Assembly: GCA_024693065.1 (NCBI GenBank)
Contig: JAILLP010000006.1
Location: forward strand, 186,001 to 250,000
Reading direction: 5' to 3'
Length of the DNA: 64,000 nucleotides
From: Paludibacteraceae bacterium
GTDB taxonomy: Bacteria; Bacteroidota; Bacteroidia; Bacteroidales; Paludibacteraceae
Made by a program: the position numbers and the translations under genes. The notes beneath the pieces were generated by a model. It made no database searches, was not told where the DNA came from, and worked only from the letters and a program-made list of their open reading frames with translations. This document shows, piece after piece, positions 10,958-29,933 of this stretch; position 1 is the first letter of the stretch, and the number at the start of each line of letters is the position of its first letter.

Positions 10958-11070
10958 CTTGGTATCTGATAAATATTGAACTGAAATCAATTTGAAATAT
11001 TTTTAGGTGAGGATGAGTATTTCCAATCCCAAAACTTTTAACCATTTGGTTCAGGTCTAACCAATAGGTT

Positions 11071-12752: not shown

Positions 12753-12761
12753 ATCATAAGA

Positions 12762-13805: not shown

Positions 13806-13852
13806 ATTCCGAGAAATGTCCGAAAAAAAACGCTACGGAATTTTTAAAAGAT

Positions 13853-15271
13853 TTATTTATTGTCCCCTGTTCCCTCATTGGAGGTTGAGACCGCTTCTGT
13901 CGCCAGTTGCTGTTTTTTCGCATTCGAGGATTGCCTCAAACGCATTAATCTTTCCAACTGTTTGGTACTCAACACAATGCCTCTGTAGTAGAACAACAGA
14001 AACATTGATATGAACAACGAGATGTTTTCACTAAGATCACCACTAATCATGGAACGTACGAGGTACGGGATCCACAAGAGAAGGCAGATGCCTCCGCTCG
14101 GCAGCTCGTTACGTAAGAGGAAATGGTGTGATCGCACATAGGAGAAGACCACCATGCCGACAAATATCATTCCGAAGAAGCCCATTTCGCAAAGGATTTC
14201 AAGGATGATATTGTGAGGGTAGATCTCATGCGTATAGGGATTATTGTAGTTGCCGAAGCCAATTCCATCCAAGAAATGGTATGAAATTATCATCAATGGA
14301 TAATCGTAGTTACGATTCAAATCGCTTCCCATATGCGCTCCACGAGATGAGTTCCCTTGTAGGAACGGCACTTCTAACAGTTGTAAGCATAAGTAGAAGC
14401 CTACGATAACCGCCGATGCCAAAATGACTGTGGTCAACTTAAATCTACCTGTACGGAATACTATCCATACAAAGATCAGGAAGATGAATCCGAAGATAGT
14501 TTGACGGGCACCCGAAAGGACAATCAGCCACAAAGCGCTGAAAAGGAATACGATGTCAAAATAGTTATTGACCTTCTTGCGTTGGCTCATCATGAATGCG
14601 GCGCCTAGGAAGGCGGCGATACCCATGTTGTGGTAAGATAGCACAGGTATGTTCTTCCTCATCATCTCGATACAGGCATTACGGAAGAAGGAGAAATCCA
14701 ACAGTCCGGATGGCCCATGCCCTGAAAAAGACTCCACATACCCCAATTGCATCAACGCAAAGAGAAGGAAAGGCACCGTCAATCGGTTCATCCTGATATC
14801 TTTAAACGTCACTAGGACAAGGAATGCGACGGTATCCACAAAAAGAGAGATAGTCATGACGCTGATTTTCGTCGCCGAATTCTTCGTCTCCCCTGTCAGC
14901 AGGAAGTATATCACAAAGATGAGATATATCGCAAGTATGAATATGAGAGGTTTCTTCGTATGCTTATTGAACAGCATGAAAAGTTCCTTTCTCATGAATA
15001 CGATAATCAGGATGAAGGAAACCACTGTTCCCGGTACGTGAATACCCAATACTGGACCGAATGTTCCTATTAACTTACAGAACACAAGCGCACACACTAC
15101 ACTCTTCTCATGGTTGTTGCACAAGAAGATGAAGGAGAGGAATATCAGTATGGCAATGATAGGGAACTTGATGATATTCAGTAGCACCCCTATTATCAGT
15201 ATGGGGATTATGAATACAAGATATGCGTTTATCTTGTCCCATACTGTGTTATAGACCATTCTCTCTATCAT
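13853..15271 (-). CDS. O-antigen polymerase/ligase-like protein (Wzy candidate, locus A)
   Basis: 472-residue polytopic membrane protein with about 11-12 hydrophobic segments and a larger extracytoplasmic loop about residues 310-360 containing QGNSSRGAHMGSDLNRNYDYPLMIISYHFLDGIGFGNYNNPYTHEIYPHN arranged as in Wzy_C/WaaL proteins: Arg before an HN-type motif and the conserved H-N-x-x-L/I-E (NIILEIL). In this flippase-dependent locus the natural role is polymerising repeat units in the periplasm. The C-terminal 40 residues are polar and cytosolic. Confidence 0.82.
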   Translation of the reverse strand: MIERMVYNTVWDKINAYLVFIIPILIIGVLLNIIKFPIIAILIFLSFIFLCNNHEKSVVCALVFCKLIGTFGPVLGIHVPGTVVSFILIIVFMRKELFMLFNKHTKKPLIFILAIYLIFVIYFLLTGETKNSATKISVMTISLFVDTVAFLVLVTFKDIRMNRLTVPFLLFALMQLGYVESFSGHGPSGLLDFSFFRNACIEMMRKNIPVLSYHNMGIAAFLGAAFMMSQRKKVNNYFDIVFLFSALWLIVLSGARQTIFGFIFLIFVWIVFRTGRFKLTTVILASAVIVGFYLCLQLLEVPFLQGNSSRGAHMGSDLNRNYDYPLMIISYHFLDGIGFGNYNNPYTHEIYPHNIILEILCEMGFFGMIFVGMVVFSYVRSHHFLLRNELPSGGICLLLWIPYLVRSMISGDLSENISLFISMFLLFYYRGIVLSTKQLERLMRLRQSSNAKKQQLATEAVSTSNEGTGDNK

Positions 15272-15300
15272 GACACGTCAAATCTATTTCTATTCTTTGT

Positions 15301-15351
15301 AGCAGCCAGTGGTATCGAACCACGAACCTGCGTTCCACCTGTGTGGCTGCT
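15301..15351 (-). other. tRNA-like hairpin element, acceptor and T-arm only
   Basis: On the minus strand a perfect 8-bp stem AGCAGCCA/TGGCTGCT closes a 51-base element. Its 3' part (AGGTTCGTGGTTCGATACCACT) resembles a variable loop plus T-arm with the TTCGA T-loop core. Only 15 bases replace the D and anticodon arms, so it cannot be a working tRNA. It lies 30 bases upstream of the polymerase ATG, between wecC and that gene. It may be a decayed tRNA end or a leader hairpin. Confidence 0.5.
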
Positions 15352-15374
15352 TCCCTTTGCTTAATGTCCGGTTT

Positions 15375-16601
15375 TTAGATATGATATACACCCTCCAACG
15401 GACAGATGTTATGGCAATCCAAGATGACCTTACCCTTCAACTTGTCCCAATTTTGCTTGATTTGGTCATGTTTCACCATGATGACCACCATGTCCACGTC
15501 GTTGAGGAACTCGTCGAAGTCGTGGAATTGGTTCTTCACGATATCCTGCTTCAGGAACGGGTCATAGCACTTCAGCGGACGAGCCAAATGGCGTTCTTGC
15601 GCTTCGAGCATCTGCAAGGTTGGTGACTCTCGGTAGTCATCCACGTTCTCCTTATAGGTGATGCCGTACAGACCCACTTTCCGGTTGTCTGTGATGTTAT
15701 TCTCCTGCATGATTTCGTAGATACGGTTCAGCACGAAAGTAGGCTGGCTATCGTTCGTCTTCATGGACTCGTCGATCACCTTCGCTAATTGAGGGTAGTC
15801 GCCCACGAGGAACCAAGGGTCCACGGAGATACAGTGTCCGCCGACGCCTGGACCAGGTTGCAGGATGTTCACACGAGGATGCATGTTACAAATCTTGATG
15901 ATCTCATAGACATCCATATTGTCGTGACGACAGATCCTGGCAAGTTCGTTCGCAAAGGCGATATTGACCGCACGGAAAGTGTTTTCCACCACTTTGGTCA
16001 TCTCGGCCGTACGGATATCCGTCACGACGATTTCTCCTTGGCAGAAGGAGGCGTAGTATTTTTTCACCTTCTCTCCTATCGCCTTGTCGTCGGCACCGAT
16101 TGTACGATTGTTGTGGAGCAACTCGTAAACCATGTTGCCTGGGATGATACGCTCAGGCGCATGCACAAGGTTGATGTCCTTGCCGATGACGAATCCGTTC
16201 GCCTCGACAACCGGACGTACGAACTTGTCCATTGTACCTGGACTAACGGTGGATTCCACCACAACGGTTGCGCCTTTCGGACAAACCTTCATTACCTCCT
16301 TAACGGCAGCCACCACATAGCAAGCGTCCACCTTCTTGGAGAACTTATTGTAAGGTGTAGGAACAGAGACGATGTACATGTCCGTCTTCTGATATTCGGT
16401 GGTGAACTTAATGCCAGCCTTGACAGCCGCATTGAAAAGTTCGTCGAGACCATCTTCCTTGAAGGTTGTTTTTCCTTCGTTCAAAGTGGCAACAAGTTCC
16501 TTGTTGTAATCCGTACCAATCACTTCAACACCATGGGATGCCATCATCAGGGCGGTAGGAAGTCCGATGTATCCCAATCCAATTACGTTAATCATAGACA
16601 T
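15375..16601 (-). CDS. wecC: UDP-N-acetyl-D-mannosamine dehydrogenase
   Basis: 408-residue UDP-sugar dehydrogenase that oxidises UDP-ManNAc twice with NAD+ to UDP-ManNAcA. N-terminal Rossmann loop VIGLGYIGLP (residues 6-15), central VESTVSPGT and HAPERIIPG, catalytic Cys257 in PGVGGHCISVDPWFL, and C-terminal nucleotide domain (VGLYGITYKENVDDYRESP). The HAPER form and the neighbouring wecB point to the ManNAc rather than glucose class. ATG 16,601 is used; a second Met is at codon 3. Gap of 82 bases to wecB upstream. Confidence 0.92.
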   Translation of the reverse strand: MSMINVIGLGYIGLPTALMMASHGVEVIGTDYNKELVATLNEGKTTFKEDGLDELFNAAVKAGIKFTTEYQKTDMYIVSVPTPYNKFSKKVDACYVVAAVKEVMKVCPKGATVVVESTVSPGTMDKFVRPVVEANGFVIGKDINLVHAPERIIPGNMVYELLHNNRTIGADDKAIGEKVKKYYASFCQGEIVVTDIRTAEMTKVVENTFRAVNIAFANELARICRHDNMDVYEIIKICNMHPRVNILQPGPGVGGHCISVDPWFLVGDYPQLAKVIDESMKTNDSQPTFVLNRIYEIMQENNITDNRKVGLYGITYKENVDDYRESPTLQMLEAQERHLARPLKCYDPFLKQDIVKNQFHDFDEFLNDVDMVVIMVKHDQIKQNWDKLKGKVILDCHNICPLEGVYHI

Positions 16602-16683
16602 ATAGTATCTTAAAAACGAGCGAATCAGCTATTAGCCAATTGTTTTCGTATGTGTTATAAATATTATTTTAGTTAACAAAAAA

Positions 16684-17832
16684 TCATTCTAAAGCTTTCA
16701 CGATTCTGCCGCAGGCTAGTCCGTCTCCGTAAGGGTTCACTGCCTTGGACATCTTATCGTAGGCTGCCGGGGAATCCAGCAATTCCGAAACATTATCGAA
16801 AATAGCATTGTAGTCTGTGCCAACTAGTTTCACCGTGCCTGCGGAGAGTGCCTCCGGACGTTCGGTTGTGTCGCGCATGACAAGGACTGGTTTACCGAGG
16901 CCTGGCGCTTCCTCCTGGATACCTCCCGAATCTGTGAGCACCAGGGTGGACTTCTCCATCAGGTAAACGAACTCCAAATATTGGAGCGGTTCGATGAAAA
17001 AGAAGTTCTCGTATACCGTAAGGTCTTCGCCGAATACCTGATGGATAGGCCTGCGGACATTCGGGTTGAGGTGCATCGGATAGACGAAATCGACATCAGG
17101 ATATTTCTCCGAAAGATCTTTCATGGCGGTCACCATGCTGATGAAGCCACCACCAAAATTCTCTCGTCTATGACCTGTGATAAGCACGAGTTTTTTTCCG
17201 TTATTGAGGCGTGACACATCATAGCCGGCATTTTTCAATACTTGGATTTGTTCGTCAGCGAGGGCCTTGTCGCCCTTTAATTTGTTGACTACCATATGGA
17301 GAGCATCGATTACGGTGTTGCCCGTTACGAAAATTTTCCCATGGGCCTTTTCTTCCTTGAGATTCTGCTCGGAAAGAGGCGTCGGGGCGAAATTATATGT
17401 TGCGATACGTCCTGTGATTTGACGGTTCATCTCCTCTGGCCATGGACTGTAGATGTTATGTGTGCGTAGACCCGCCTCGACATGGCCCACAGGTATCTGC
17501 TGATAGAAGGCCGCCAATGCTGATGCGGTGGAAGTCGTCGTGTCTCCATGAACCAACACCACGTCAGGCCTGCATTGCGCGAAGACATCCCGCATGCCTG
17601 TCAGAACACGGGCCGTCACATCATATAGATCCTGGCCTTGTTTCATGATGTTCAAATCATAGTCTGGTTTCACATCGAAAATTTTTAACACCTGATCCAA
17701 CATTTCCCTATGTTGTCCTGTCACACATACAATCGTTTCAAAATCTCTTGGATATTTTTGAAACTCTTTAACCAATGGACACATCTTAATCGCCTCCGGA
17801 CGTGTTCCGAAGACCAACATCACCTTTTTCAT
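16684..17832 (-). CDS. wecB: UDP-N-acetylglucosamine 2-epimerase (non-hydrolysing)
   Basis: 382-residue GT-B-like epimerase converting UDP-GlcNAc to UDP-ManNAc. Visible family blocks: MLVFGTRPEAIKM at the N-terminus, VHGDTTTS, HVEAGLRTHN, ITGHRRENFG and DSGGIQEEAPGLGKPVLVMRDTTERPE. ATG at 17,832 gives the conserved start; a GTG 30 bases upstream (17,862) only adds a non-conserved leader. Its product feeds WecC directly downstream, giving UDP-ManNAcA for the WecG-type transferase later in the operon. Confidence 0.95.
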   Translation of the reverse strand: MKKVMLVFGTRPEAIKMCPLVKEFQKYPRDFETIVCVTGQHREMLDQVLKIFDVKPDYDLNIMKQGQDLYDVTARVLTGMRDVFAQCRPDVVLVHGDTTTSTASALAAFYQQIPVGHVEAGLRTHNIYSPWPEEMNRQITGRIATYNFAPTPLSEQNLKEEKAHGKIFVTGNTVIDALHMVVNKLKGDKALADEQIQVLKNAGYDVSRLNNGKKLVLITGHRRENFGGGFISMVTAMKDLSEKYPDVDFVYPMHLNPNVRRPIHQVFGEDLTVYENFFFIEPLQYLEFVYLMEKSTLVLTDSGGIQEEAPGLGKPVLVMRDTTERPEALSAGTVKLVGTDYNAIFDNVSELLDSPAAYDKMSKAVNPYGDGLACGRIVKALE

Positions 17833-17878
17833 CGATATACAAGTATTTATTTTACTATTCACATTTTCAAGCGTATAC

Positions 17879-19402
17879 CTATCGTTTCAACTTCCGCATG
17901 AAACCCGTCGCTTTGTCTTTTACCATTTGCCGTTCCTTGTCGCTCATGCCTATCGCATAGGAAAAGAATCCTGTGACAAGGAGCACCATTATGACAAAAT
18001 AGAAGAGCGAGTACATATTATCGGAAAAGAATCTTGAAAGATAAAATACAACCAATGCGCTACTTACTCCAACCTTCAGAACGGGAAGAATCACATTCTT
18101 CAAGAAACGCCTTAGAGGAAAGTCGATATAACCTCCCAATACCTTCGTAATTGTAAACAAATAAGCCACGCGCACCGCACACATCACTTGGAAAACAATG
18201 GTAGGCTCATGCCCGAACGACAACATCACCCAACTGATCGGGAAGCCCATCAGGAATACAGAACTACCCAACATGAAGAACTTGGCAATCCTTCCTGAAG
18301 CTTGAGCCGCGCACCACACCGGGTTGGACAATACGTTGATCGCGCTGAACAACAACGTCCACACAACGAATTCGGAGGCATACTCTGGCGGGTTTTTCAG
18401 CCATAGATGAAGTATATAATCTGACTTTGCCATAATCGGCAGACAGATCATCCATGTCATGTAGAATGAGAAGCGACAACTCGTATAGATTAGTTTGTTG
18501 AAGTATTCATAATCTTTGGCGGCGAACGATTTGACAATCTGAGGCCTTACCGCTGTGAAGAAATTGAGACTGAAACTGTTGACCGCCTGCGTGACTTGCG
18601 TCGCGATACCATTGGCGGCATTAACTACCGTTCCGAAGAATGTATTAATCAACACATTGATGCCTTGTGAATTGATCATCCACACAGCACATCCGAATCC
18701 ATTCCATCCGATGAAGCCGAACAATTGCTTAACCATCACCTTGTCATAACGCAGGTCGAACTTACACTCCTCGTATTTCCGTATGCATACGATCGCCGGA
18801 ATTAATTTCGACACGAGATGTACTACACAAAGCAATATGGCGTATAGCAACAAACGATCGCTTTCCGAAAGCATCAACGCATAAACAATCAACAACTTCG
18901 AGACTGCGTCGAACACACCCACGAAAGCATAACACTTCATGTTTTCCCTTGCGATCAAAACCGAATCGTAGACAGAAAGCATCATTGTCGCGACGAACAT
19001 AAAGACTGTCACGAAAAACACGCCTATCGCCGCATCCATCCGATCCGCAGGAATCACCAATTTATGCGTAACAAACCAATAACCAATTGGTAACCCTATC
19101 AGCAAAACGACGACCGCCACAAACGAATAGATAAGAAAACTATTATTGAAAACGGCCTTCGCACCTGCCATGTCGTTCTCACCCATCTTGAAATTCAAGA
19201 AACGTTGGGTTGAGTTGGACAATGCGCTAGAAAAGAAAACGAACGAACTCGAGATGCCGCCCACTACATTGTAGATACCGAAATCCTGCTCTCCTAATAC
19301 ATCCAGAATCACCCTGCTCGTAAAGAGGGTGACCAACATGATGAAGAACATCCTCACATATAGAAGTAGCGTATTCTTGGCTATGCGGGTTGAATTAGAC
19401 AT
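17879..19402 (-). CDS. Oligosaccharide flippase (Wzx) of locus A, first type
   Basis: 507-residue MOP-superfamily membrane protein with about 12-14 helices. The N-terminus RIAKNTLLLYVRMFFIMLVTLFTSRVILDVLG ... GIYNVVGG is paralogous to the flippase at 633-2,177. It is predicted to flip the lipid-linked repeat unit. Only four bases separate it from a second flippase gene of another subfamily immediately upstream, an unusual doubling within one operon. Confidence 0.88.
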   Translation of the reverse strand: MSNSTRIAKNTLLLYVRMFFIMLVTLFTSRVILDVLGEQDFGIYNVVGGISSSFVFFSSALSNSTQRFLNFKMGENDMAGAKAVFNNSFLIYSFVAVVVLLIGLPIGYWFVTHKLVIPADRMDAAIGVFFVTVFMFVATMMLSVYDSVLIARENMKCYAFVGVFDAVSKLLIVYALMLSESDRLLLYAILLCVVHLVSKLIPAIVCIRKYEECKFDLRYDKVMVKQLFGFIGWNGFGCAVWMINSQGINVLINTFFGTVVNAANGIATQVTQAVNSFSLNFFTAVRPQIVKSFAAKDYEYFNKLIYTSCRFSFYMTWMICLPIMAKSDYILHLWLKNPPEYASEFVVWTLLFSAINVLSNPVWCAAQASGRIAKFFMLGSSVFLMGFPISWVMLSFGHEPTIVFQVMCAVRVAYLFTITKVLGGYIDFPLRRFLKNVILPVLKVGVSSALVVFYLSRFFSDNMYSLFYFVIMVLLVTGFFSYAIGMSDKERQMVKDKATGFMRKLKR

Positions 19403-19406
19403 TCTC

Positions 19407-20897
19407 TTACTTCTCCTCTAATTCATCAACGTCGATAAATCCTGACAACTTCCCTCTGACAGATGCGGGCAACATGGAGATGATTTCTCTCAGATCATCC
19501 TTTAGGAATAGCTTTGCGCAGCATAAATAGACAAACACACCGATGATGATGTCGCATGGCAAAGCGATGTAGACGTTATGGACATAATGGTTAAATAACA
19601 TGATGATGCTCCACATGACCATGCCGATCAGGAATATTGGGGAGATGTCCCTCATCTGCTTGAAGAAGCCCACATTGATCAGTTTGCCCGTATAGTACGT
19701 GTTGATGGCCAACGCTAGTATGGAGGTCACGATGCCACTCGCCACCATGACGACGATTCCGTGCGGTATTGCGATGGCCATGATGGCCACGCCGATCAGT
19801 TTCTTAAAGATCTCCAATTTGAGGAAGAGGTCGGAACGTCCTTTCACCTGTAGTAGATCCAAATTGATGGCATGTATAGGGTAAAACATCATGTAGAAAC
19901 AAGCTAACTGCAATAGGATAATACATCCCTGCCATTTGTCGCCCAAGAAAACACGCACGAAAGGTTCACCTGCGGAAGACAACCCCATCATCAAGGGGAA
20001 CACGATAAAGGCTGATAGCCGAAGTATCTTCCTATAATTGCGAGCCAAACGCTCATCATCGTTTTGTATGGTGCTCAGTACAGGGAAGGTCACGCGTTGT
20101 AAAACGCCCGTCAGGTTGCTGGACGGTAATGAGGCGAAGTGGTTCGCCGTCGTGTAGTTACCCAAGTCCGCAGGTTTGAAGAGCTTACCGATCACGATCG
20201 GATAGATGTTGATGTAAAGTGTGTCGAGGATAGAGGAGGCCAACATTTTGCTTCCATAGTTCCACAAATAGTGGAAAGATTCGTTCGACCACTTTCCGTG
20301 TGGTCTCCATGTACTTGTGCGCCACAATAAAAATGCGCGAACCGTTTGGGCGAATATGGCTTGGAACACCAATGCCCAGACACCGAAGCCACTCAGCGCC
20401 AAAACTACGCCAATGCATCCTCCTACGATGGAGGCGCACAAAGAGATCTTCGCTTGTCGCTTGAAGTCGATCTGCTTGGTCAGCAATGCCTGCTGCACCG
20501 TGCAGAACGAGCCGATGAGCATTCCCAATGCAGAAACCTTCAGCAAGGAGGTCAAGATCGGTGCCTTGTAGAAGTCTGCGACAAACGGGGATGCGAGGAA
20601 GAGGAGCCCATAACAAACAATGCCCGCTATAATGTTGAAATAGAAGGCTGTCGTGATGTCCTCTTCTTTCAGGTCCGGTTTGCGAATCAGCGCGGAAGCG
20701 AATCCGCTATCCACAAAGCATAACGCCAAGGAAAGGAACACCATTGGCATTGCCACTAATCCGTAATCGTCAGGAGAAAGCAGTCTCGCAAGGAAAATAG
20801 CGAATACAGCGGATATACCCTGTGTTCCGAAACGTTCCAATGCGCTCCAGAAAAGGCCCTTCTTTGTCTTGTTTCTTAGTGATTCTTCCTCTGCCAT
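19407..20897 (-). CDS. Oligosaccharide flippase of WzxC type
   Basis: 496-residue polytopic protein. The N-terminus NKTKKGLFWSALERFGTQGISAVFAIFLARLLSPDDYGLVAMPMVF and SGFASALIRKPDLKEEDITTAFYFN are typical of the WzxC/polysaccharide_synt group of MOP flippases. It differs from the other two flippases in the window. Placed between the acyl-synthesis cassette and flippase one, possibly translating a differently decorated unit. A degenerate ACTAAAGTCTAATGTCTAGTGTCT tract sits in the 56-base gap upstream. Confidence 0.88.
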   Translation of the reverse strand: MAEEESLRNKTKKGLFWSALERFGTQGISAVFAIFLARLLSPDDYGLVAMPMVFLSLALCFVDSGFASALIRKPDLKEEDITTAFYFNIIAGIVCYGLLFLASPFVADFYKAPILTSLLKVSALGMLIGSFCTVQQALLTKQIDFKRQAKISLCASIVGGCIGVVLALSGFGVWALVFQAIFAQTVRAFLLWRTSTWRPHGKWSNESFHYLWNYGSKMLASSILDTLYINIYPIVIGKLFKPADLGNYTTANHFASLPSSNLTGVLQRVTFPVLSTIQNDDERLARNYRKILRLSAFIVFPLMMGLSSAGEPFVRVFLGDKWQGCIILLQLACFYMMFYPIHAINLDLLQVKGRSDLFLKLEIFKKLIGVAIMAIAIPHGIVVMVASGIVTSILALAINTYYTGKLINVGFFKQMRDISPIFLIGMVMWSIIMLFNHYVHNVYIALPCDIIIGVFVYLCCAKLFLKDDLREIISMLPASVRGKLSGFIDVDELEEK

Positions 20898-20953
20898 AAC
20901 CTAGCTCAACAACCTCACAATCATCTAACGACTAAAGTCTAATGTCTAGTGTC

Positions 20954-21715
20954 TCAATATGCGGTGATACCACCATCAATACAAATAGATTGCCCCGTTA
21001 CCCAAGAAGCCGCATCAGACAAAAGGTACACTACCCCTCCGGCGATGTCTTCTGGCTTGCCGTAACGTTTCAAAGGATAAAAGTCCATGTCTTTTTGAAT
21101 CGCCTCCTGGGTGATGTTTTCGGAAAAGCCCTCAACCAAAGGTGTCACCACCATGCCTGGACATACCGAGTTGACACGTATTTTCTTCGGAGCCAATTCG
21201 AGGCTGCACAAACGTGACATGGAGTTTAGCGCGGCTTTCGATGCCCCATAGATTCCATTGCCTACGGAGAAGCCGAAATTGCCTCCCACAGACGATATGA
21301 ACACTACAGATGCCCCGTTGACCAATTTTTTCTTCTTTACCAACAGACGAAGTATTTCAATCGGGGAAAAAAAGTTCACGTCGAACACTTTGTCGAACTT
21401 CTCTCTTGTGGAAAAGGTGAAAGGTGCTGTCATGGAGATGCCTGCGGAAAAGACCACACCGTCCAACGAAGGTGTCTCCGCCACAAGTTTCTCAATGACC
21501 GACTGGTCCGTCAATTCGCCGACGAAAGTCGAATGCCCCTCCCCTGGCATTTGGGAGAGGGTTTCCTTCAGCCTCTCCTCATTCCTGCCACACACGATGA
21601 CCTTCGCTCCCATTTGCGCCGCCATCAACGCACATCCCTGACCGATGCCGGAAGAGGCGCCTGTCATCAATATTGTTTTTCCCTCTAAGGAAAATGGATT
21701 ATTCGTTATACCCAT
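20954..21715 (-). CDS. SDR ketoreductase (FabG-like) of acyl cassette
   Basis: 253-residue classical short-chain dehydrogenase/reductase. Cofactor loop TGASSGIG (18-25), catalytic Asn114, Ser141/142, Tyr156 and Lys160 (YGASK), C-terminal WVTGQSICIDGGIT as in FabG. FabG reduces 3-ketoacyl-ACP to 3-hydroxyacyl-ACP with NADPH. The start overlaps the end of the KAS III gene upstream by 10 bases, arguing for a shared pathway: condensation by KAS III, then reduction. A sugar substrate is the alternative reading, but the context favours an acyl chain. Confidence 0.85.
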   Translation of the reverse strand: MGITNNPFSLEGKTILMTGASSGIGQGCALMAAQMGAKVIVCGRNEERLKETLSQMPGEGHSTFVGELTDQSVIEKLVAETPSLDGVVFSAGISMTAPFTFSTREKFDKVFDVNFFSPIEILRLLVKKKKLVNGASVVFISSVGGNFGFSVGNGIYGASKAALNSMSRLCSLELAPKKIRVNSVCPGMVVTPLVEGFSENITQEAIQKDMDFYPLKRYGKPEDIAGGVVYLLSDAASWVTGQSICIDGGITAY

Positions 21716-22782
21716 GTTAAATTTTCAAATTGATTGTCATCCACTTCTATCAGGTCTGAAATCACAATGTCCTTTGTCGAGAAGGAAACGGACCCCCATG
21801 AGAGACCCACACCGAATCCGCAACAGATAAAACTGGTGTTTTTCCCTTCAATCTTACCTTTGAGTTGCGTTGTGATGGTGATAGGAATACTTGCGGACAG
21901 CGTGTTCCCGAAATGTTCGAAGGATGAGATGACCTTTTCCTGTGCCACATCCAATTTCTCGACAATATGCTGATTGATGCTTTTATTTGCCTGATGAAGA
22001 ACCAAATAGTCACAGTTTTTATAATCGATGTTGTAATGTTCGCACAATTCGTTGATGGTCTTCGGTACACTATTGATGCAAAACGACAAGAACTCCTTTT
22101 CTTTCATCTCAGCCTCCATGGAATGTTGCATGAACGGGTCGTCGAATCGCTTGATGAGTTCCTCGTCGTACTCCATCTTACGCATACCACTCTGTGGCAT
22201 TATCACAACATCAAATCCACTGCCATCTGTTCCAAAATTGAATTTGAAACCCTCGTCGCCTGGAGCATATTCCAAGGCTGTCACACAACCGGCATGACCG
22301 AACTGAAGCGCATTCCGGCCTTTCCCCCATGTCATTCGTCCATCTCCCGTCAACAACAATCCACGTTTGATGTTACCGTCACGCATGATGGATGAGAGTA
22401 CACTTAATCCATATACCCAACCAGAACATCCCAAACAGATGTCTTGCGCATAACATTCTTTGCTTAAGCCTAAACGGTCCTGAATGAGGCAAGCGTTGAC
22501 AGGCAACGGATAGTCAGGAGTGAGGCTTACGCAAAGTATGGCATCCACACTATCTTTCTCCCATCCTAAATCCACCAACATACGTTCGGCCGACATGACT
22601 TGAAGGTCGGAGACCGTGAGTTCGAGGCTTTCCCTTCTCTCAATGATACCGATCTGTTCGATATATTTGCTGTTGTCTTCTTCGCCGCACGCCTTCAGAG
22701 CGTCATTGTTATGGACAACCCTTTTGGGCACAGCAGTGGACATGCCGGCAATCCGAACATTTTTTATATCTAGAAACGCCAT
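21706..22782 (-). CDS. 3-oxoacyl-ACP synthase III-like enzyme (KAS III, copy 1)
   Basis: 358-residue thiolase-fold condensing enzyme with a complete Cys-His-Asn triad: Cys119 (LGCSGWVYGL), His263 (LVLHQAN) and Asn293 (HFGNTLSAS). KAS III enzymes condense an acyl-CoA starter with malonyl-ACP. Slightly longer than housekeeping FabH (about 320-335). It pairs with a second KAS III gene 24 bases upstream, and is translationally coupled to the SDR downstream. Both starts share MAFL(D/E)xKNV, showing they are duplicates with diverged starter pockets. Confidence 0.92.
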   Translation of the reverse strand: MAFLDIKNVRIAGMSTAVPKRVVHNNDALKACGEEDNSKYIEQIGIIERRESLELTVSDLQVMSAERMLVDLGWEKDSVDAILCVSLTPDYPLPVNACLIQDRLGLSKECYAQDICLGCSGWVYGLSVLSSIMRDGNIKRGLLLTGDGRMTWGKGRNALQFGHAGCVTALEYAPGDEGFKFNFGTDGSGFDVVIMPQSGMRKMEYDEELIKRFDDPFMQHSMEAEMKEKEFLSFCINSVPKTINELCEHYNIDYKNCDYLVLHQANKSINQHIVEKLDVAQEKVISSFEHFGNTLSASIPITITTQLKGKIEGKNTSFICCGFGVGLSWGSVSFSTKDIVISDLIEVDDNQFENLTWV

Positions 22783-22806
22783 GTTTTTTTCTTAGTTGAT
22801 TACTTG

Positions 22807-23880
22807 TTAAGAGACAACAACACCTTCCTCATTGACTTCCACAAGATCGGAGATGAGAAGGTTTTCCGTCATAAAATAGACTGTAGCCCATGATAATCCT
22901 ACACCAAATCCACAACACAGGAAATTCCGTTTTCCTGTTGTCGCCTTATCTTTTAGTTCCGTCACGATTGTCAACGGGATGGAGGCGGAAGATGTATTAC
23001 CGAAATGATGCATGCAGGAAGGGACCTTTTCTGCAGGAAGTTTCAGTTTCTTGGCGATCATGCTATTCATCGCCATATTCGCCTGATGTAGCACCAAATA
23101 ATCACATTCCTGGTAATCGAAGCCATAATTCTCCGCCAATTTTTTCACGGATTTCGGTGCGGTCGTGATGCCGAAAGAGAAAACATCCATTCCCTTCATG
23201 CGGGACTGCATTCTGGACTTTTTCCCGCCCTCACATTCCTCGTATTGAAATGTGCGCGGAGTAATCAGATTGCGGCATCCGCTATCAGGTATGATGATCG
23301 CATCATAACCACTACCATCCGTTCCGCAATGGAACTGGAACCCTTGTGCTCCAGGTTTAAATTCCAAAGCTGTCACTGTGCCCGCATGTCCGAACAATGG
23401 AGACAATTTTAACGGACGAACCGCCTTGGAGTCTCCAGCCATTAACAGTGCTTTCTTCATGCATCCGGTAGAGAGCAGGGAGGATACGGTGTTCAAACCA
23501 TAGACCCATCCCGAACATCCTAATGTCAAATCGATGCAATAGGTGTTCTTGCTCAAGCCTAAACGGTCTTGAAGCAAACCTGAAGTGGCCGGTGTGGCAT
23601 AATCTCGTGTCTGGGAAACAAATATAAGCGCATCAATTTCCTCTTTTTTCCAACCCAGGTCGGCAATAAGACGTTCCGCCGCATGGTAGCATAGGTCAGA
23701 GGTGGTCTGCGTATAGGTTATGCGACGTTCCAACACGCCCGTATTCTTCACAAAGTCCTCGGGAGAATAGTCGGACGACACGTCGTCGTCAGGCAAAGGC
23801 CGCAGGTTGTTCGCCACAAAACTGGGAACACCTGCCGCCATACCTACTAAATTCACGTTTTTAAATTCCAAGAAAGCCAT
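22807..23880 (-). CDS. 3-oxoacyl-ACP synthase III-like enzyme (KAS III, copy 2)
   Basis: 357 residues with intact triad Cys122 (LGCSGWVYGLN), His265 (LVLHQAN) and Asn295 (HFGNTSSAS). Paralogue of the following gene. Its start overlaps the stop of the acyl-carrier-protein gene by one base (TAATG), so ACP and KAS III are made in step. Expected role: loading or elongating an acyl group on that ACP. Starter specificity (acetyl, propionyl, branched) cannot be read from sequence. Confidence 0.92.
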   Translation of the reverse strand: MAFLEFKNVNLVGMAAGVPSFVANNLRPLPDDDVSSDYSPEDFVKNTGVLERRITYTQTTSDLCYHAAERLIADLGWKKEEIDALIFVSQTRDYATPATSGLLQDRLGLSKNTYCIDLTLGCSGWVYGLNTVSSLLSTGCMKKALLMAGDSKAVRPLKLSPLFGHAGTVTALEFKPGAQGFQFHCGTDGSGYDAIIIPDSGCRNLITPRTFQYEECEGGKKSRMQSRMKGMDVFSFGITTAPKSVKKLAENYGFDYQECDYLVLHQANMAMNSMIAKKLKLPAEKVPSCMHHFGNTSSASIPLTIVTELKDKATTGKRNFLCCGFGVGLSWATVYFMTENLLISDLVEVNEEGVVVS

Positions 23881-24113
23881 TATATCTTAGAAACAACTAT
23901 GTTATACACATCCTCTATTGTTTCGGAGTTCTTCACGTCATCCCCTTTCAATGCCACGTCAAATTCCTCGTCAATCATGGAAATCAATGAGAGCGCCAAA
24001 AGAGAAGACCATTCGTCCAATTCACGGAATTTTGTCTGAGCAGTTACACTTGATGGATCTGTTTCGTCCAATTGTTCTGCAAATAAAGCAACAAATTCAT
24101 CCAAACTTTTCAT
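23880..24113 (-). CDS. Acyl carrier protein dedicated to polysaccharide locus
   Basis: 77-residue acidic four-helix protein. The segment ELDEWSSLLALSLISMIDEEFDV aligns with the DSLxxxELxxxxEEEF region of ACPs, placing the phosphopantetheine serine at Ser37. It would carry the chain built by the two KAS III enzymes and the SDR. The TAATG overlap with the KAS III gene and 29-base gap from the acyltransferase gene make a tight cassette. Differs from housekeeping AcpP by WSSL in place of DSL. Confidence 0.88.
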   Translation of the reverse strand: MKSLDEFVALFAEQLDETDPSSVTAQTKFRELDEWSSLLALSLISMIDEEFDVALKGDDVKNSETIEDVYNIVVSKI

Positions 24114-24142
24114 TTCGTAATCGTTTAATTAAAGTAAGTAAA

Positions 24143-24778
24143 TCAAATATCTAATACCTTTGCAGGTACTCCAAATACAGTCGTTCGCTCTTTCACGTCC
24201 TTCAGTACGACGCTACCTGAGCCAATCGACGAATAGTCACCCACACGAATCTTCGGCAATATCGTCGAGTGTGGATGGATGGTCACGCATTCACCTAATT
24301 CGGAATACCCTCCTAGTGCCGTGTATGACTCAATCTCTCCGTATCTGCCGACCTTGGCATCATGTCCCAAATTGCAGAACGGATGAATCACGGTGAAGTC
24401 ACCTATGGTCACATCTGCCGAAATAATCGTGTATGCGCCAACAAAAATCCCATTGCCTAATTTAGCCGTGGAATTTATCAAAGCATAGTCGCTTATGCAA
24501 GATATGAAATTCCCTCCATTTTTCAAAATACAATCTATATATTTTTTCCGCTGGAGAGGATCTCCCAATGCACAAAAAAACACATCATCTTTCTGTATCT
24601 GATACGTTTCGACTGGCCCTAAAATCGGCGGATATCCCGTCATTCCATCCAATGCGTGTGCGTTATCATCAAGGAATCCTTTTATTTTGTAGTGCCACTT
24701 ATAGCCTTTTTTGTTTTTAAAAAGGTCATAGCTCTCCCTTCCAAAACCCCTTGCGCCTATAATTACGATTTGCTTCAT
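24143..24778 (-). CDS. Sugar N/O-acyltransferase, NeuD/PglD family
   Basis: 211 residues: N-terminal Rossmann-like nucleotide-sugar domain (IVIIGARGFGRE, FLDDN) followed by a left-handed beta-helix of hexapeptide repeats (about 95-205). Catalytic His lies in NLGHDAKVG, as in PglD. PglD acetylates the 4-amino group of UDP-bacillosamine precursor with acetyl-CoA. Here the neighbouring ACP and KAS III genes suggest that a longer acyl group, possibly from acyl-ACP, is transferred to an amino sugar. The donor is inference. Confidence 0.88.
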   Translation of the reverse strand: MKQIVIIGARGFGRESYDLFKNKKGYKWHYKIKGFLDDNAHALDGMTGYPPILGPVETYQIQKDDVFFCALGDPLQRKKYIDCILKNGGNFISCISDYALINSTAKLGNGIFVGAYTIISADVTIGDFTVIHPFCNLGHDAKVGRYGEIESYTALGGYSELGECVTIHPHSTILPKIRVGDYSSIGSGSVVLKDVKERTTVFGVPAKVLDI

Positions 24779-24830
24779 TCATATTTCTGTTTATCATTCA
24801 ACATTTAACTATTGGATTGCCTATGTGGAT

Positions 24831-27221
24831 TTATTTGACATAATAATCCGAATGGTATCCATAACGGTAGGCAAACTTGCCTTTTTCCATGGAGGTTCCG
24901 TTTAAGATTAACGACATATTCTTGAATCGTTGTTCGTTGTACATGGCTGTCAATTCATCCAACATGGAACGTTCCAACAATCCTGCGCGAACGACGAACA
25001 GTGTTCTATCGACGTATTTTTCAACGATTTGCGTGTCCGCGACAATGTCTATTGGAGGACAATCTATCAAAATATAATCATATTTTGGTTTCATCTTCTC
25101 AATGACTTCAGACAACACACCGTTGCTGATCAACTCTGTCGGATTAGGTGGAATACCTCCCACAGGAAGAATATCCAAACCAACATATCCACTGGCGGAT
25201 TGTACCAATATTCCGTCCAGATCCTTCACCCTGCCGTTCAGATATGCGCTGAGTCCAGTCGTCGGATTCTTCGCCCACTTCGACAAGGATGCGTGTCTCA
25301 TATCGCAATCGATCAGCAAAACTCGCCTGTCTTTCACTGCCAAACTTAAGGCGGTGTTGACGCATATAAAGCTCTTTCCGCTGCCCGCATTGAACGATGT
25401 GATCATCATCACCTTTGAACCCATATTCGTTAGGAACTCCAGGTTCGTACGCATGACACGGAATGCCTCGTTTACAGCGTTTCTATTGCCAGGTTGTACC
25501 ACAGCGGTATGGATTCGATGTGGTTTCTTCCAAAATCGCCACCATTTACGCTGCCGCTGAACCAATGGAATCTCTCCTACTAACGGTATAGGCACCTGCT
25601 CCAAATCTTTTCTTCCTCGTACTGTGTTGTTTGTCGTGAGCCTTGTGTATAGAACTCCCAAAGGAATAATTAACCCGAGCATGAAGGCAACTACCAATAT
25701 GTTACGCTTCTTAGGAGCATCCGGGAATATACTGCCTCCTGGACGTTTGATGATTCGTGTGTTGTAGGCTGTATAAGCCTGTGACAATTCGTTTTCCTCA
25801 CGTTTCTGCAACAAAAAGAGGTAGAGAGCCTCTTTGACCGCCTGCTGACGTTCCGCTGACAGTAGCATTTCCGCCTGTTTCGGGTTGGAGGATATTCTCG
25901 ACAACGCATTACGCTCACTATGTTTCAAGGTGCTGATCCTGTTATCGATAGCGGCGATTTGGTTGTCAATGGATACCAATATGGCACTTCGCATGGAGGC
26001 AAGATCCTCATCCATTCCCTTCACCAAATCGTTCTCCGAACTACTGTTCGACTCCAATCGGTTTCGTTTCAGAAGTTTCTCATTATATTCTGAGATCTGA
26101 TTCTCGATGTTGGCGTTTTGGATACCTGAACTAACCGGCAACACCTTCGTCTGATTCGATTCGATAGCCAAATAATCCCTAATGTATTGGGTCATGTACA
26201 ACTGCGAATTCAAATCGCGCAACTGGTTGGAGATGGCGGCGTTCTCTTGCATGTACATCTCCGCCACAGCCTTTACGTCAGGCAATAGGTTTTTACTTTT
26301 GTAGGAAGATATATTGTTGTCTACACTGGATAATTCCTCTTCGATAATCTTCAGACGCTCATTGATGAACATGGATGTTCCCTCAGCAATCTGGTTCTTG
26401 TCGTTGATCCAATTCTCATTATACACTTTGATGATGCCGTTCAAGAAAGCATCTCCACGCTGCGTGGAAACGTCCCGAACCATCATTGTTATAATGTCCG
26501 ACTTGATATCCTCTTGAGAAACAGACAACCTTGACGACCAATTTTCTTGTGACTTAAATAGATTGGTACGCTTGATTTCTATTGTCGTTAATTGTTTTCT
26601 GTTATTAAACTCCGGCACACGACTCACTAGTACCCTTCCTACCGGTGTGTTTGTCGTATCGCCTATGTGGATCCTACATTTATCGCCACTCTCCATTTCA
26701 TTCCCCTCTTCTAGGTCATGAAAAGTGAAGTCGTAGAGGACGACAAAGTCATTACGATCCAGATCCATCACGCAGGTCACATCCACATAATCCGTGATGT
26801 CCAGGAAATCGACCATCACAGGCAACTTGGAACCGTACAAGACTTGTCCTTTCAAACTACCCACAGCCTTGTATTCCATGTCCAGATGGTATCGTTTTAT
26901 GACCTCACACATCAAATCCGGAGAGATCAGGGCGCGGAGTTCATTGTTCACACTCGTACCCATCGACGACAATCCCATGTCGTTGAATGCGTTCTGAAGC
27001 TTCAAAGCGGAATTGCCCGCAGACTCCGATTTTATCTGAACCTCCGCAGATCTCGTGTATGATGACGGTGTCCTCAGTATATAAAGTACAGCCAAGGATA
27101 ACACGACAAGCATTGAAATGGCGAACCAATGCCAATGCCTTTTAATTTGGACATACAACTCGTCGAAATCCAAAGAGTCCTCTACTATGATATCTTCATT
27201 AAAGGTCCAATTCTGATCCAT
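24831..27221 (-). CDS. wzc: Polysaccharide co-polymerase / BY-kinase, Wzc family (copy 2, locus A)
   Basis: 796-residue Wzc homologue: Wzz domain with a membrane helix near residues 33-52, coiled-coil periplasmic region, second helix about 515-535, then BY-kinase with Walker A SFNAGSGKS, Walker A' LLIDCDMRHASLSK and Walker B YILIDCPP. The C-terminal Tyr cluster is short (FAYRYGYHSDYYVK). Very similar along its full length to copy 3 at 39,359-41,755 and more distant from copy 1. Regulates polymer length through phosphorylation cycles; no phosphatase gene lies in locus A. Confidence 0.94.
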   Translation of the reverse strand: MDQNWTFNEDIIVEDSLDFDELYVQIKRHWHWFAISMLVVLSLAVLYILRTPSSYTRSAEVQIKSESAGNSALKLQNAFNDMGLSSMGTSVNNELRALISPDLMCEVIKRYHLDMEYKAVGSLKGQVLYGSKLPVMVDFLDITDYVDVTCVMDLDRNDFVVLYDFTFHDLEEGNEMESGDKCRIHIGDTTNTPVGRVLVSRVPEFNNRKQLTTIEIKRTNLFKSQENWSSRLSVSQEDIKSDIITMMVRDVSTQRGDAFLNGIIKVYNENWINDKNQIAEGTSMFINERLKIIEEELSSVDNNISSYKSKNLLPDVKAVAEMYMQENAAISNQLRDLNSQLYMTQYIRDYLAIESNQTKVLPVSSGIQNANIENQISEYNEKLLKRNRLESNSSSENDLVKGMDEDLASMRSAILVSIDNQIAAIDNRISTLKHSERNALSRISSNPKQAEMLLSAERQQAVKEALYLFLLQKREENELSQAYTAYNTRIIKRPGGSIFPDAPKKRNILVVAFMLGLIIPLGVLYTRLTTNNTVRGRKDLEQVPIPLVGEIPLVQRQRKWWRFWKKPHRIHTAVVQPGNRNAVNEAFRVMRTNLEFLTNMGSKVMMITSFNAGSGKSFICVNTALSLAVKDRRVLLIDCDMRHASLSKWAKNPTTGLSAYLNGRVKDLDGILVQSASGYVGLDILPVGGIPPNPTELISNGVLSEVIEKMKPKYDYILIDCPPIDIVADTQIVEKYVDRTLFVVRAGLLERSMLDELTAMYNEQRFKNMSLILNGTSMEKGKFAYRYGYHSDYYVK

Positions 27222-27274
27222 ACACGTTATATACTCATCAAAACAACATCAACCGACAAATCGATGTAGCCTCA

Positions 27275-28090
27275 TTATTTATTGTTCAACACAAGTGCGA
27301 CAACCGTAGCCGCCAACGAGGAGATGGATATCCAGAACGAAGTGGATCTCACATTATTACCATTGACGGTAGATTGTTTAACCTTCATCTTGTTTGGTGT
27401 GACGTATATCACATCGTCTTGTTGCAAATAGTATACCGGAGATTGAACAACGTTCTGCAAAGAGTTCAGATTGACGCGGAACGTCTTTTGCTTACCCTCC
27501 TCCATTCGCAAGACAAGCACGTCTTCCCTCTTTCCTTGAATGGTTATGTCTCCTGCACTACTAATCGCCTCCAAAAGGGTCATGTTGTCTTTGTAAATCC
27601 TGTAGATTCCAGGGTGAGCGACCTCACCGATGACGGAAATACTCAGATTCAAGAAATCAACGGTGACAACAGGGTCTTTGGCTTGATTTCTCGACTCTAT
27701 CTCGTCTTTGATTAGGGTGGCCAACTCATTTCTCGTCAATCCAGCGACATTGATCTTTCCTATTGTCGGGAAATCTATATTTCCATCGCTATCGACGGTA
27801 TAACCGGAAACTGCGCTGGACTCCTCACCGAACAATGTGCTGCGGGCACCGGTGCTGACGATTCTCTGTGTCACATACGGCAGATTAAACAACGCTGACA
27901 ACTGTGGATCCTTACAATTCACCACGATTGATATCCTATCCTTAGGTCTTAGCGTGATCTCCTGCACTGCAGAGGTGTTTATGCCTTTAATACGATCCGC
28001 ATCCTGAAAATATGGTATTTTCTTATGCGATGAACAAGAACTCAACAACAGAGCGAGTAGTACATTAAAAATCAACCACTTTGTTTTCAT
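27275..28090 (-). CDS. wza: Outer-membrane polysaccharide export lipoprotein, Wza family (copy 2, locus A)
   Basis: 271 residues. Signal peptide ends LLSSC (Cys19), then KIPYFQDADR, VVNCKDPQLSALFNLPYV, an SLBB-like repeat region and a C-terminal hydrophobic helix (SFWISISSLAATVVALVL). Near-identical in protein sequence over long stretches to copy 3 at 41,808-42,638, although many third codon positions differ. Lies between the initiating transferase and wzc, the standard head order. Confidence 0.94.
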   Translation of the reverse strand: MKTKWLIFNVLLALLLSSCSSHKKIPYFQDADRIKGINTSAVQEITLRPKDRISIVVNCKDPQLSALFNLPYVTQRIVSTGARSTLFGEESSAVSGYTVDSDGNIDFPTIGKINVAGLTRNELATLIKDEIESRNQAKDPVVTVDFLNLSISVIGEVAHPGIYRIYKDNMTLLEAISSAGDITIQGKREDVLVLRMEEGKQKTFRVNLNSLQNVVQSPVYYLQQDDVIYVTPNKMKVKQSTVNGNNVRSTSFWISISSLAATVVALVLNNK

Positions 28091-28114
28091 TGTCTATTCT
28101 ATTATTTATTATTG

Positions 28115-29269
28115 TTATTTCATATTTAGTTTATTCTTCTCAATCTTGGAATGCATCCATATGTTTATCACGGAATAGAATAACACGATACACATGAAGA
28201 GCAACGTAGGATCCATCACCTTAGACAGAATCAAGCTCACCCCGATGATAAACGCCGAGAAGAACAAAATACTAATCATGGCCACATGCTGCGACATTCC
28301 TAGCTTTAATAACTTATGGTGAATGTGGCTCTGGTCTGGCATAAACGGATTCTTCCTGCACTTCAGACGATAAATGAATACACGAACAACATCCATGCAT
28401 GGCACCATCAACGGCGTGAAGGCGAGGAACATCGGATGAACCTTCGACAAACATGTGTGTGTCGGTGCGATTTCCACATTGGCCATCCGGAAACTCAGGA
28501 AACAGAGTATCAATCCGATTGTGAGGGATCCCGTATCTCCCATGAATATCTTCTTCTGTTTCTCTGCCTTCCCGAAGACATTATAAAAGAAGAATGGTAT
28601 GACAGTTCCTAATGTGGCAAACGCGACCAATGAGAAGGTATACTCCCCTATCTCGAGAAACACGAACCCGTAGTATCCCAAAGCGACTCCACTCAACCCG
28701 GAAGCCAACCCATCTATGCCATCGATCAAGTTCATGGCGTTGATGATGAATACAACAAGGAAAATGGTCAGAGGCCAGAACATGAAATTCGGGAGCCTGT
28801 CATTGAGGAAGAACAACCCATGCAGGTCTGATATGTACAATCCTCCAAAAAGGAACAACAATCCGCATCCCAACTGTGCAACGAACTTGGCGCTATATTT
28901 TACACCTATCAAGTCATCCGCTATGCCGACTAGATAAAGAAGAATCAGTGAACACACACAAATGGAAAGACTTAAAATATTTTCCCCTAATTCCTCCATC
29001 AACTGAAGTCTGCCCGTATGTACATCAAAAACCAACAAAATGAAAATCGTGAATAGGATGACTGGTTCAAACGCTAATCCTCCTAATCTCGGTACTGTAC
29101 TATGGTGTATCTTCCTTTCGTCTATCTCGTCGAATAGTTTCTTACGAAAGGCAATCAATAGAATCTGTGGTATCAACACACCAGCTGCGACTATTGACAT
29201 CACTAGCGCAGATGACATTATAAACCACCAAAATATGGTGTCAGGCATTGTGGTGAAAAAATCCAACAT
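28115..29269 (-). CDS. Undecaprenyl-phosphate HexNAc-1-P transferase, WecA/MraY family (locus A)
   Basis: 384-residue polyprenyl-phosphate transferase with about 11 membrane helices. Conserved cytoplasmic motifs: DERKIHHSTVPRLGG, GIADDLIG (Asp-Asp), NAMNLIDGIDGLASG, FMGDTGSL and HIHHKLL. It starts the repeat unit by moving a HexNAc-1-phosphate from UDP-sugar to undecaprenyl phosphate; with WecB/C/G downstream, GlcNAc is the likely sugar. Closely paralogous to 42,651-43,808. Follows the antiterminator gene by 19 bases. Confidence 0.92.
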   Translation of the reverse strand: MLDFFTTMPDTIFWWFIMSSALVMSIVAAGVLIPQILLIAFRKKLFDEIDERKIHHSTVPRLGGLAFEPVILFTIFILLVFDVHTGRLQLMEELGENILSLSICVCSLILLYLVGIADDLIGVKYSAKFVAQLGCGLLFLFGGLYISDLHGLFFLNDRLPNFMFWPLTIFLVVFIINAMNLIDGIDGLASGLSGVALGYYGFVFLEIGEYTFSLVAFATLGTVIPFFFYNVFGKAEKQKKIFMGDTGSLTIGLILCFLSFRMANVEIAPTHTCLSKVHPMFLAFTPLMVPCMDVVRVFIYRLKCRKNPFMPDQSHIHHKLLKLGMSQHVAMISILFFSAFIIGVSLILSKVMDPTLLFMCIVLFYSVINIWMHSKIEKNKLNMK

Positions 29270-29288
29270 ATTTTATTCCAGTCTTAAT

Positions 29289-29825
29289 TCAATCATCCAG
29301 TTTTTCCAAGAATGACCTCGGTATATACGATGTGGCCACAACCGCCACTCCTTCTATCGAAACTATCAATCTTTTCCTCCCTTGTATCCTCTTCACGTAT
29401 CCTTCCGCCCCTTTGAACACACCGTCAATCACCCTAACATGATCTCCGATTTTACACTCAGTGGACATGCCTTCCTGAAGGAGTTCCAATCCCATGTCCC
29501 CGACAGATGTCACCAATATGAAGGAATCCATTTCCTTGTCAGGGATAAGGCGAGGTTGCTTCGTCTCTATGTCCGCATAGACATAAAACGCGTCTCCAAA
29601 CCTCTCCTTCAATGAAACCAGATATTTCGTGCTGCAATTTATGAACAGCAAAGAGGTGATCAGTTGTTTTTTCTCATATACCTTTTGTCCGTCTTTAAAT
29701 GATTCGACCGTCCTCATCGGCACATAATACCGAATTTCGTCCTCATCCAATATGGTAGACATCTTCGTTACCCGATTGAAGAAAACATTCACGGCAAACC
29801 AGCCAAACTCACGTATCTTATCCAT
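29289..29825 (-). CDS. UpxY-family transcription antiterminator (NusG-like)
   Basis: 178 residues. N-terminal NusG-type (NGN) domain WFAVNVFFNRVTKMSTILDEDEIRYYVPM and C-terminal KOW motif GDHVRVIDGVFKGAEGYVKRI. UpxY proteins of Bacteroides head capsule operons and act on the untranslated leader to let polymerase read through the long operon. Position as first gene of locus A fits this exactly. No UpxZ-type partner is seen, and locus B has no such gene. ATG at 29,825 is used; a short overlapping upstream frame is listed separately. Confidence 0.9.
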   Translation of the reverse strand: MDKIREFGWFAVNVFFNRVTKMSTILDEDEIRYYVPMRTVESFKDGQKVYEKKQLITSLLFINCSTKYLVSLKERFGDAFYVYADIETKQPRLIPDKEMDSFILVTSVGDMGLELLQEGMSTECKIGDHVRVIDGVFKGAEGYVKRIQGRKRLIVSIEGVAVVATSYIPRSFLEKLDD

Positions 29826-29911: not shown

Positions 29912-29933
29912 TATCCTCAGAAACACTATTCTA

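Follow-up and report, generated by a model that had tools for sequence, protein, structure and literature searches.

Why would a bacterium carry a small set of genes from the families of fatty-acid synthesis inside a capsule operon? The question is raised by a 64,000-nucleotide stretch of DNA from a Paludibacteraceae bacterium (hereafter the window; positions 186,001 to 250,000 of contig JAILLP010000006.1, assembly GCA_024693065.1), in which five adjacent genes encode a NeuD-type acyltransferase, an acyl carrier protein (ACP), two 3-ketoacyl-ACP synthases of type III (KAS III; KAS A and KAS B) and a short-chain dehydrogenase/reductase (SDR). A preliminary description of this DNA had proposed that the five genes build a short acyl chain and transfer it to an amino sugar. 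We consider it likely that they do represent a dedicated route by which a hydroxyacyl-ACP is made and its acyl group passed to an amino sugar, a proposal well supported by the gene order, the linkage to a 4-aminotransferase gene, the presence of a separate FabH in the genome and the replacement of NeuD by a GNAT-type protein in related cassettes.

In the mechanism we propose, a minimal, dedicated cassette of the type II fatty-acid or polyketide style would operate from within the capsule operon. On the dedicated ACP, the KAS III enzymes would extend short acyl chains by condensation with malonyl units, and the SDR would reduce the 3-oxo group which, with no dehydration to follow, would leave a short hydroxyacyl-ACP; with two KAS enzymes, this would most likely be 3,5-dihydroxyhexanoyl-ACP. 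The NeuD-type enzyme would then use the chain to acylate the amino group of a 4-amino-4,6-dideoxy sugar in its nucleotide-linked form, most likely deoxythymidine diphosphate-4-amino-4,6-dideoxyglucose (dTDP-Qui4N) made from the RmlB product by the DesI-like DegT-family aminotransferase of the adjacent operon, and the acylated sugar would enter a WecA-primed capsule repeat, probably one that also contains N-acetylmannosaminuronic acid (ManNAcA). We infer every substrate and product of this pathway, and the exact pair, 3,5-dihydroxyhexanoyl on Qui4N, is held more tentatively than the general mechanism, as a best guess from the number of KAS genes and from precedent.

The genes themselves were as previously described: all five open reading frames were found on the minus strand at the coordinates first given for them, with the same families by Pfam and NCBIfam and the same junctions (TAATG between the ACP and KAS A genes and a 10-base overlap between those of KAS B and the SDR). 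The NeuD-type enzyme scored 165.5 bits against TIGR03570, above the curated cut-off of 160.8, its nearest PDB entry by sequence was VioB (7txp), and its His139, which we take to be catalytic, is part of a GHD motif. The ACP passed PF00550 (31.0 bits, cut-off 20.8) despite falling under the NCBIfam ACP cut-offs (25.7 versus 66 bits), and the position of its Ser37 is a serine in all 116 aligned ACP matches. Both KAS proteins exceeded the PF08541 and PF08545 cut-offs and on alignment retain complete Cys-His-Asn triads; they are 47% identical to each other, KAS B being the less conserved within the genus. The SDR scored 184.5 bits against adh_short_C2 and was closest in the PDB to a 3-oxoacyl-ACP reductase (3f9i, 132 bits), with Tyr156 and Lys160 kept in 114 of 114 aligned SDR matches, so the label "FabG-like" suits it in these respects; it falls short of the FabG equivalog TIGR01830 (148.1 bits, cut-off 297.75). 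For the ACP and SDR residue counts, loci L037, L038 and L044 were left out and lengths were restricted to 60-110 residues (ACP) and 200-300 residues (SDR); here and below, comparison loci carry numbers with the prefix L.

The preliminary description had also considered the cassette to be an undescribed modification system, and in this it was mistaken, as both the chemistry and the gene set are already known from Flavobacterium psychrophilum. In the portions of the study by Cisar, Bush and Wiens (2019, PMC6519341) that concern these genes, wfpC and wfpE are given as 3-ketoacyl-ACP synthases, wfpD as an ACP, wfpF as a reductase and wfpG as a PglD homolog; 3,5-dihydroxyhexanoyl was located on Qui2NAc4N of the O-polysaccharide by nuclear magnetic resonance (NMR), and its synthesis and transfer by wfpC-G (the R1-group genes, accession MK214915) was put forward as a predicted pathway. 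A 2011 review (PMC3210612) likewise includes (3S,5S)-3,5-dihydroxyhexanoyl bacillosamine, and 3-hydroxybutyrate on Qui4N in a Shewanella capsule, among known structures. The likeness between the window cassette and wfpC-G, which rests on the published gene descriptions rather than on an alignment with Wfp sequences, extends to an ACP, two KAS, a 3-ketoacyl-ACP reductase and a PglD-type acyltransferase in a surface polysaccharide cluster, and to the proposed acylation of a 6-deoxy sugar at its 4-amino group. The two differ in the sugar module, which in the wfp cluster as described consists of PglE/PglF and a PglC-type transferase (for uridine diphosphate [UDP]-Qui2NAc4N), whereas the window has a WecA-like primer enzyme, and its aminotransferase closest to the cassette is DesI-like and encoded in the adjoining operon. 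In the open-licence papers searched we found no report of the DesI-like pairing, of the KAS III clade described next or of the breadth of the family.

A search of the bacterium's own genome with KAS A identified three KAS III proteins, the cassette pair and a FabH on another contig. When 165 cassette-type KAS were aligned with Escherichia coli FabH and 30 further FabH (from 30 genomes of the family, chosen at E <= 1e-50 to the bacterium's own FabH, a search that matched in 31 of 41 genomes, 30 of them given as loci, so that more divergent FabH are not represented), the cassette-type proteins formed a single clade with a support of 0.937; sequences under 280 residues and identical copies were omitted from the KAS trees. 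The triad is conserved across this clade (Cys in 165, His in 164 and Asn in 165 of 165). By contrast, the residues corresponding to W32, R36, R151, K214 and R249 of E. coli FabH, which we take to form its coenzyme A (CoA)/ACP-binding site, occur in only 0, 3, 26, 0 and 0 of the 165 proteins, respectively, versus 30, 29, 30, 28 and 30 of the 30 FabH controls. The equivalents of W32, R36 and R249 are absent from both KAS A and KAS B, and all five residues are kept in the FabH of the same genome. The lysines at positions 256 and 257, presumably involved in ACP docking, show the reverse distribution (144/165 and 147/165 of the cassette type versus 7/30 and 0/30 of FabH), and as they are commoner in the cassette proteins, ACP binding may be kept. 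Judged from these residues, the cassette KAS are likely to be active and likely not to be primed in the manner of FabH; that they are primed from an acyl-ACP is a guess. Plain FabH chemistry from acetyl-CoA, as initially assumed, is thus doubtful, since what we take to be the CoA-site residues are missing clade-wide. While the cassette shares its families and catalytic residues with the housekeeping FabH/FabG/AcpP, it differs in its separate KAS clade, the lost CoA-site residues, its location in a capsule operon and its patchy spread. A role for the cassette KAS in membrane fatty-acid synthesis, to which their membership of the FabH family might point, is extremely improbable and was rejected, as the genome has a separate FabH with its CoA-site residues, the cassette KAS form their own clade, and a search of 16 genomes of the genus found no such KAS in seven.

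Why two KAS genes? KAS A and KAS B both fall inside one clade of 35 sequences, and across related cassettes the second KAS genes appear to derive from at least three separate clades: one of nine sequences from the genus of the window (support 0.896), one of the L079/L084/L085/L086 type (support 0.985) and a deep clade of 30 sequences that includes L089, L101 and L104 (support 0.972). This distribution favors a distinct job for the second enzyme. The options first suggested were two condensation steps, a heterodimer and two starters; the first of these is the strongest, given the three or more second-KAS clades and the two KAS and six-carbon dihydroxy chain of F. psychrophilum. The other two options would entail a single condensation, with a KAS III heterodimer or different starters and a 3-hydroxybutyryl-type or branched product. 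We regard this variant, which is compatible with the general mechanism, as unlikely, although both Qui4N and bacillosamine are known to bear 3-hydroxybutyryl according to the part of the 2011 review concerned (PMC3210612), cassettes with a single KAS do occur (L049, L050, L247 and L248), and KAS A and B share 47% identity and a place in one clade. Weighing more heavily with us are the intact triads of both proteins, the multiple second-KAS clades, which point to a separate function more readily than to a duplicated partner, and the six-carbon chain that accompanies the published two-KAS cassette in what is described of it (PMC6519341).

Cassette order was conserved within the genus. The KAS pair was identified in 9 of 16 genomes, and the order NeuD-ACP-KAS-KAS-SDR was present in all nine (the window, L033-L039 and L073); its retention in the window and eight other genomes is more than would be expected by chance. 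Among the seven genomes in which no cassette-type KAS was found, one is 88% complete and the rest at least 93%. The recurrence of the order in relatives was a point raised in the preliminary description: among the 80 best named loci only two, both of the window's genus, had the exact order, and we have seen it only there. These 80 loci are the best of 579 confirmed relatives and so are biased to close ones. Within 3 kb and on the same strand as their best KAS, 78 had an ACP, 75 an SDR, 49 a second KAS, 36 a NeuD, 19 a DegT and 16 a PglC. More widely, KAS matches were found in 31 of 150 genomes of the family at E <= 1e-40; the weakest of them (31-36% identity) could represent KAS III of another kind. 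At E <= 1e-100 a match was present in 21 of 395 genomes of a Bacteroidota sample, and 31 of 299 genomes of a Flavobacterium-like genus also had one.

Several variations were observed among the related cassettes. A full complement of ACP, two KAS, SDR and NeuD is found in a cultured relative, the type strain of Flavobacterium cupreum (L122). Relatives occur in metagenome-assembled genomes labelled Fibrobacter, Lentisphaeria, Treponema, Methylotenera and Akkermansia (L084, L090, L110, L118 and L143), through either lateral transfer or binning error. An AMP-binding-type ligase and a second, divergent ACP accompany some cassettes (L040, L041, L044, L045, L047, L095 and others; the ligase was checked by Pfam in L040 and assigned in the rest by a profile built in this analysis) and perhaps load a free acid as starter. 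In L106 (Flavobacterium poyangense) a Rieske oxygenase is encoded within the cassette (11053-12138), and in L134 an Asp/Arg hydroxylase-like gene follows it (13433-14191); extra hydroxylation of the acyl chain is possible in both.

The destination of the chain is suggested by the acyltransferase. In the 55 of the 80 best named loci that had more than 5 kb of flank on both sides, a NeuD was found within 9 kb in 30, a GNAT instead in 17, both in none and neither in eight (Fisher p 1.6e-8, a value that is too good as the loci share ancestry). For all 80 best named loci, whatever their flanks, the corresponding numbers were 40, 21, 0 and 19, and for 29 other loci (the window, L033-L052, L073 and L247-L253) they were 26, 0, 1 and 2. 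The GNAT profile was made from three proteins of these same loci, and two of the 17 GNAT matches (L104 and L105, 27 bits) are weak. Among three GNAT-like proteins scanned with Pfam, those of L140 and L251 were above the cut-off and that of L134 just below it. The pattern of a single N-acyltransferase, NeuD or GNAT, for each cassette supports transfer of the acyl chain to an amino group, and we propose that the NeuD-type enzyme moves it from the ACP onto a 4-amino sugar. In combining an aminotransferase with a left-handed-beta-helix acyltransferase acting on a nucleotide sugar, the system resembles VioA/VioB and PglE/PglD. Those pathways, which N-acetylate Qui4N or bacillosamine, use acetyl-CoA, and to our knowledge they have no ACP, KAS or SDR genes. 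It is also feasible, if improbable, that the window NeuD is a plain acetyltransferase and that the ACP-KAS-SDR product is used elsewhere, in O-acylation or a small molecule: TIGR03570 members of known function are mostly acetyl-CoA enzymes, as presumably is VioB, and NeuD was absent within 9 kb in 25 of the 55 loci. This would sit poorly with the place of NeuD at the head of a tight run in all nine cassette genomes of the genus, and with a GNAT-like protein taking its place in 17 of those 25 loci (counting the weak L104 and L105) and never joining it in the 55, L251 being the exception among the 29 others. A histidine nine residues after the catalytic-type histidine was also considered as a marker of acyl versus acetyl transfer, being present in 7 of 60 cassette NeuD (L037, L038, L044, L067-L072 and NeuD under 150 residues omitted) versus 14 of 19 controls (11 of 30 control loci having been removed for a nearby KAS or ACP, with only about 1.5 kb of flank seen); it was dropped, as the acetyltransferase VioB also has a threonine at this position.

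As to the acceptor, the DegT of the adjacent operon has as its nearest PDB entry 2po3 (225 bits, the next 163; deposited as a "4-dehydrase"), which we take to be DesI, and DesI (TIGR04427) was also the highest of 12 NCBIfam families, at 295.9 bits under a cut-off of 650, followed by PseC at 216.5 bits. In every one of the nine cassette genomes, no more than 15 kb separates this gene from the cassette. Orthologs with 63-81% identity stand directly before NeuD in L082, L084, L088, L089 and L091, with the ACP and KAS genes next to NeuD in all but L088, where they follow after 2 kb. Across 41 loci (the window, L067-L072 and the duplicates L038 and L044 omitted), the NeuD and DegT subfamilies were paired: both were window-like in 14 and both unlike in 21, with three mixed in each direction (p 1.2e-5). 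The 14 window-like pairs include two from the window's own genus and five from close Flavobacterium relatives in which DegT is 37-39% identical and on the opposite strand. An RmlB is encoded on another contig of the genome (444 bits, above cut-off).

Several observations weigh against this account. The highest Pfam family of the SDR, PF13561, carries the name of an enoyl-ACP reductase; we nevertheless read the protein as a ketoreductase, on the grounds that it has a YxxxK motif and relatives of FabG-like type. The locus counts are not independent, since the relatives are of common descent. NeuD and GNAT are both absent from the eight loci noted above, and L251, outside the 55, has both, its NeuD lying at a distance of 7 kb and adjacent to another DegT. 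Pfam scans of the 18 genes of the cassette's own operon found no aminotransferase and no 4,6-dehydratase such as PglF, the DegT gene lying in the adjoining operon, and four of the seven genomes of the genus without the cassette also have this DegT (Fisher p 0.06). The DegT gene is followed in 3 of 9 cassette genomes by one for an ATP-grasp protein that might itself acylate the DegT product. Finally, contig 34 of the same genome holds a PglF/DegT/PglC set, and UDP-bacillosamine, made by these enzymes in trans, is therefore an alternative acceptor. Cassettes with PglC, PglE-like and PglF genes were found in L040, L041, L045, L049, L247, L248 and L252, and unbroken, single-KAS PglC-ACP-KAS-SDR-NeuD-DegT-PglF runs in L247, L248 and L252 (3 of 7 loci examined from the Flavobacterium-like genus); Qui2NAc4N is moreover the acceptor reported for F. 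psychrophilum in the part of that study concerned (PMC6519341). We nonetheless think bacillosamine quite unlikely here, as the window NeuD groups with those paired with a DesI-like rather than a PglE-like DegT, and a DesI-like DegT is next door in all nine cassette genomes. The most likely acceptor is dTDP-Qui4N, with UDP-bacillosamine as second choice.

The ATP-grasp gene was considered as a part of the cassette and dropped: of the 16 genomes of the genus, five have an ortholog (E <= 1e-60), and only three of these are among the nine with the cassette; some strains may use it to make an aminoacyl sugar. In the cassette-free loci L067-L070 of the genus, the neighbors of the same DegT (81-83% identical) include a Wzx 49-55% identical to that of the window, ATP-grasp-like proteins and, by visual judgement alone, enzymes resembling fumarase and MmgE/PrpD. 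The arrangement looks as though the same sugar received another small acid.

Table 1. Positions of the cassette, its host operon and the associated aminotransferase gene in the window
Feature	Size	Position	Strand	Family or basis
NeuD/PglD/VioB-family acyltransferase	211 aa	24143..24778	-	TIGR03570, PglD_N, Hexapep
ACP, dedicated, Ser37 in WSSL motif	77 aa	23880..24113	-	PF00550
KAS III A	357 aa	22807..23880	-	PF08541/PF08545, triad intact
KAS III B	358 aa	21706..22782	-	PF08541/PF08545, triad intact
SDR 3-oxoacyl reductase	253 aa	20954..21715	-	adh_short_C2, PDB match 3f9i
Host capsule operon	18 genes	10250..29825	-	operon inferred from spacing and strand
DegT aminotransferase, DesI-like, adjacent operon		37431..38540	-	PDB match 2po3, TIGR04427

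The host operon begins with genes for an UpxY antiterminator and a WecA-like transferase, followed by Wza, Wzc and the cassette; after the cassette come two flippase-like proteins, WecB, a UDP-ManNAc-dehydrogenase-like enzyme and a Wzy_C protein, and the operon ends with a glycosyltransferase, a hexapeptide protein, a GH88-like protein and a WecG-family protein. Pfam scans identified no dehydratase of the hotdog family among its 18 genes, and the hydroxyl produced by the SDR would therefore stay. The capsule repeat is probably primed by WecA and probably also holds ManNAcA. The operon shares WecA-, WecB-, UDP-ManNAc-dehydrogenase- and WecG-like genes with the wecA/wecB/wecC/wecG/wecE set of enterobacterial common antigen, a likeness that suggests a core of N-acetylglucosamine and ManNAcA. 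The 4-amino sugar of that antigen is N-acetylated 4-amino-4,6-dideoxygalactose (Fuc4N); for the present system we propose a hydroxyacyl group instead, with a DesI-like enzyme. An invertible promoter before the operon was considered and rejected, as there was no inverted repeat of at least 12 bases in 29700-30200; the Bacteroides promoter pattern matched three times in the window versus 1.24 expected, which is not significant.

The window contains three successive polysaccharide gene runs (633-43808), each with Wza- and Wzc-like genes. The adjoining capsule operon (30050-43808) has its own WecA-like, Wza, Wzc and CpsB genes as well as those for the DesI-like DegT and the ATP-grasp protein, the latter having an L-amino-acid-ligase-like end. 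Farther along, two neighboring genes (51614-53444) each encode a TerB domain and a C-terminal DnaJ domain.

It is tempting, if doubtful, to go beyond the single locus to a widespread "mini polyketide" family of capsules and O-antigens, in which KAS III-only cassettes, primed from acyl-ACP and no longer using acetyl-CoA, would set chain length by the number of their KAS (one for 3-hydroxybutyryl, two for 3,5-dihydroxyhexanoyl) and in which modules, DesI-like or PglE/F and NeuD or GNAT, would be swapped freely. The KAS III clade, with its triad intact yet its CoA site lost, poses a concrete question of enzymology. The present findings extend to many Bacteroidota a prediction made for the O-antigen of one fish pathogen, and provide a testable code that relates KAS count to chain length, DegT type to sugar, and NeuD or GNAT to transfer. 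Acyl groups read from DNA in this way could help the prediction of serotypes, because in F. psychrophilum, according to the portion of the study that deals with antigenicity, differences in the acyl genes tracked differences in the antigenicity of the lipopolysaccharide (PMC6519341).

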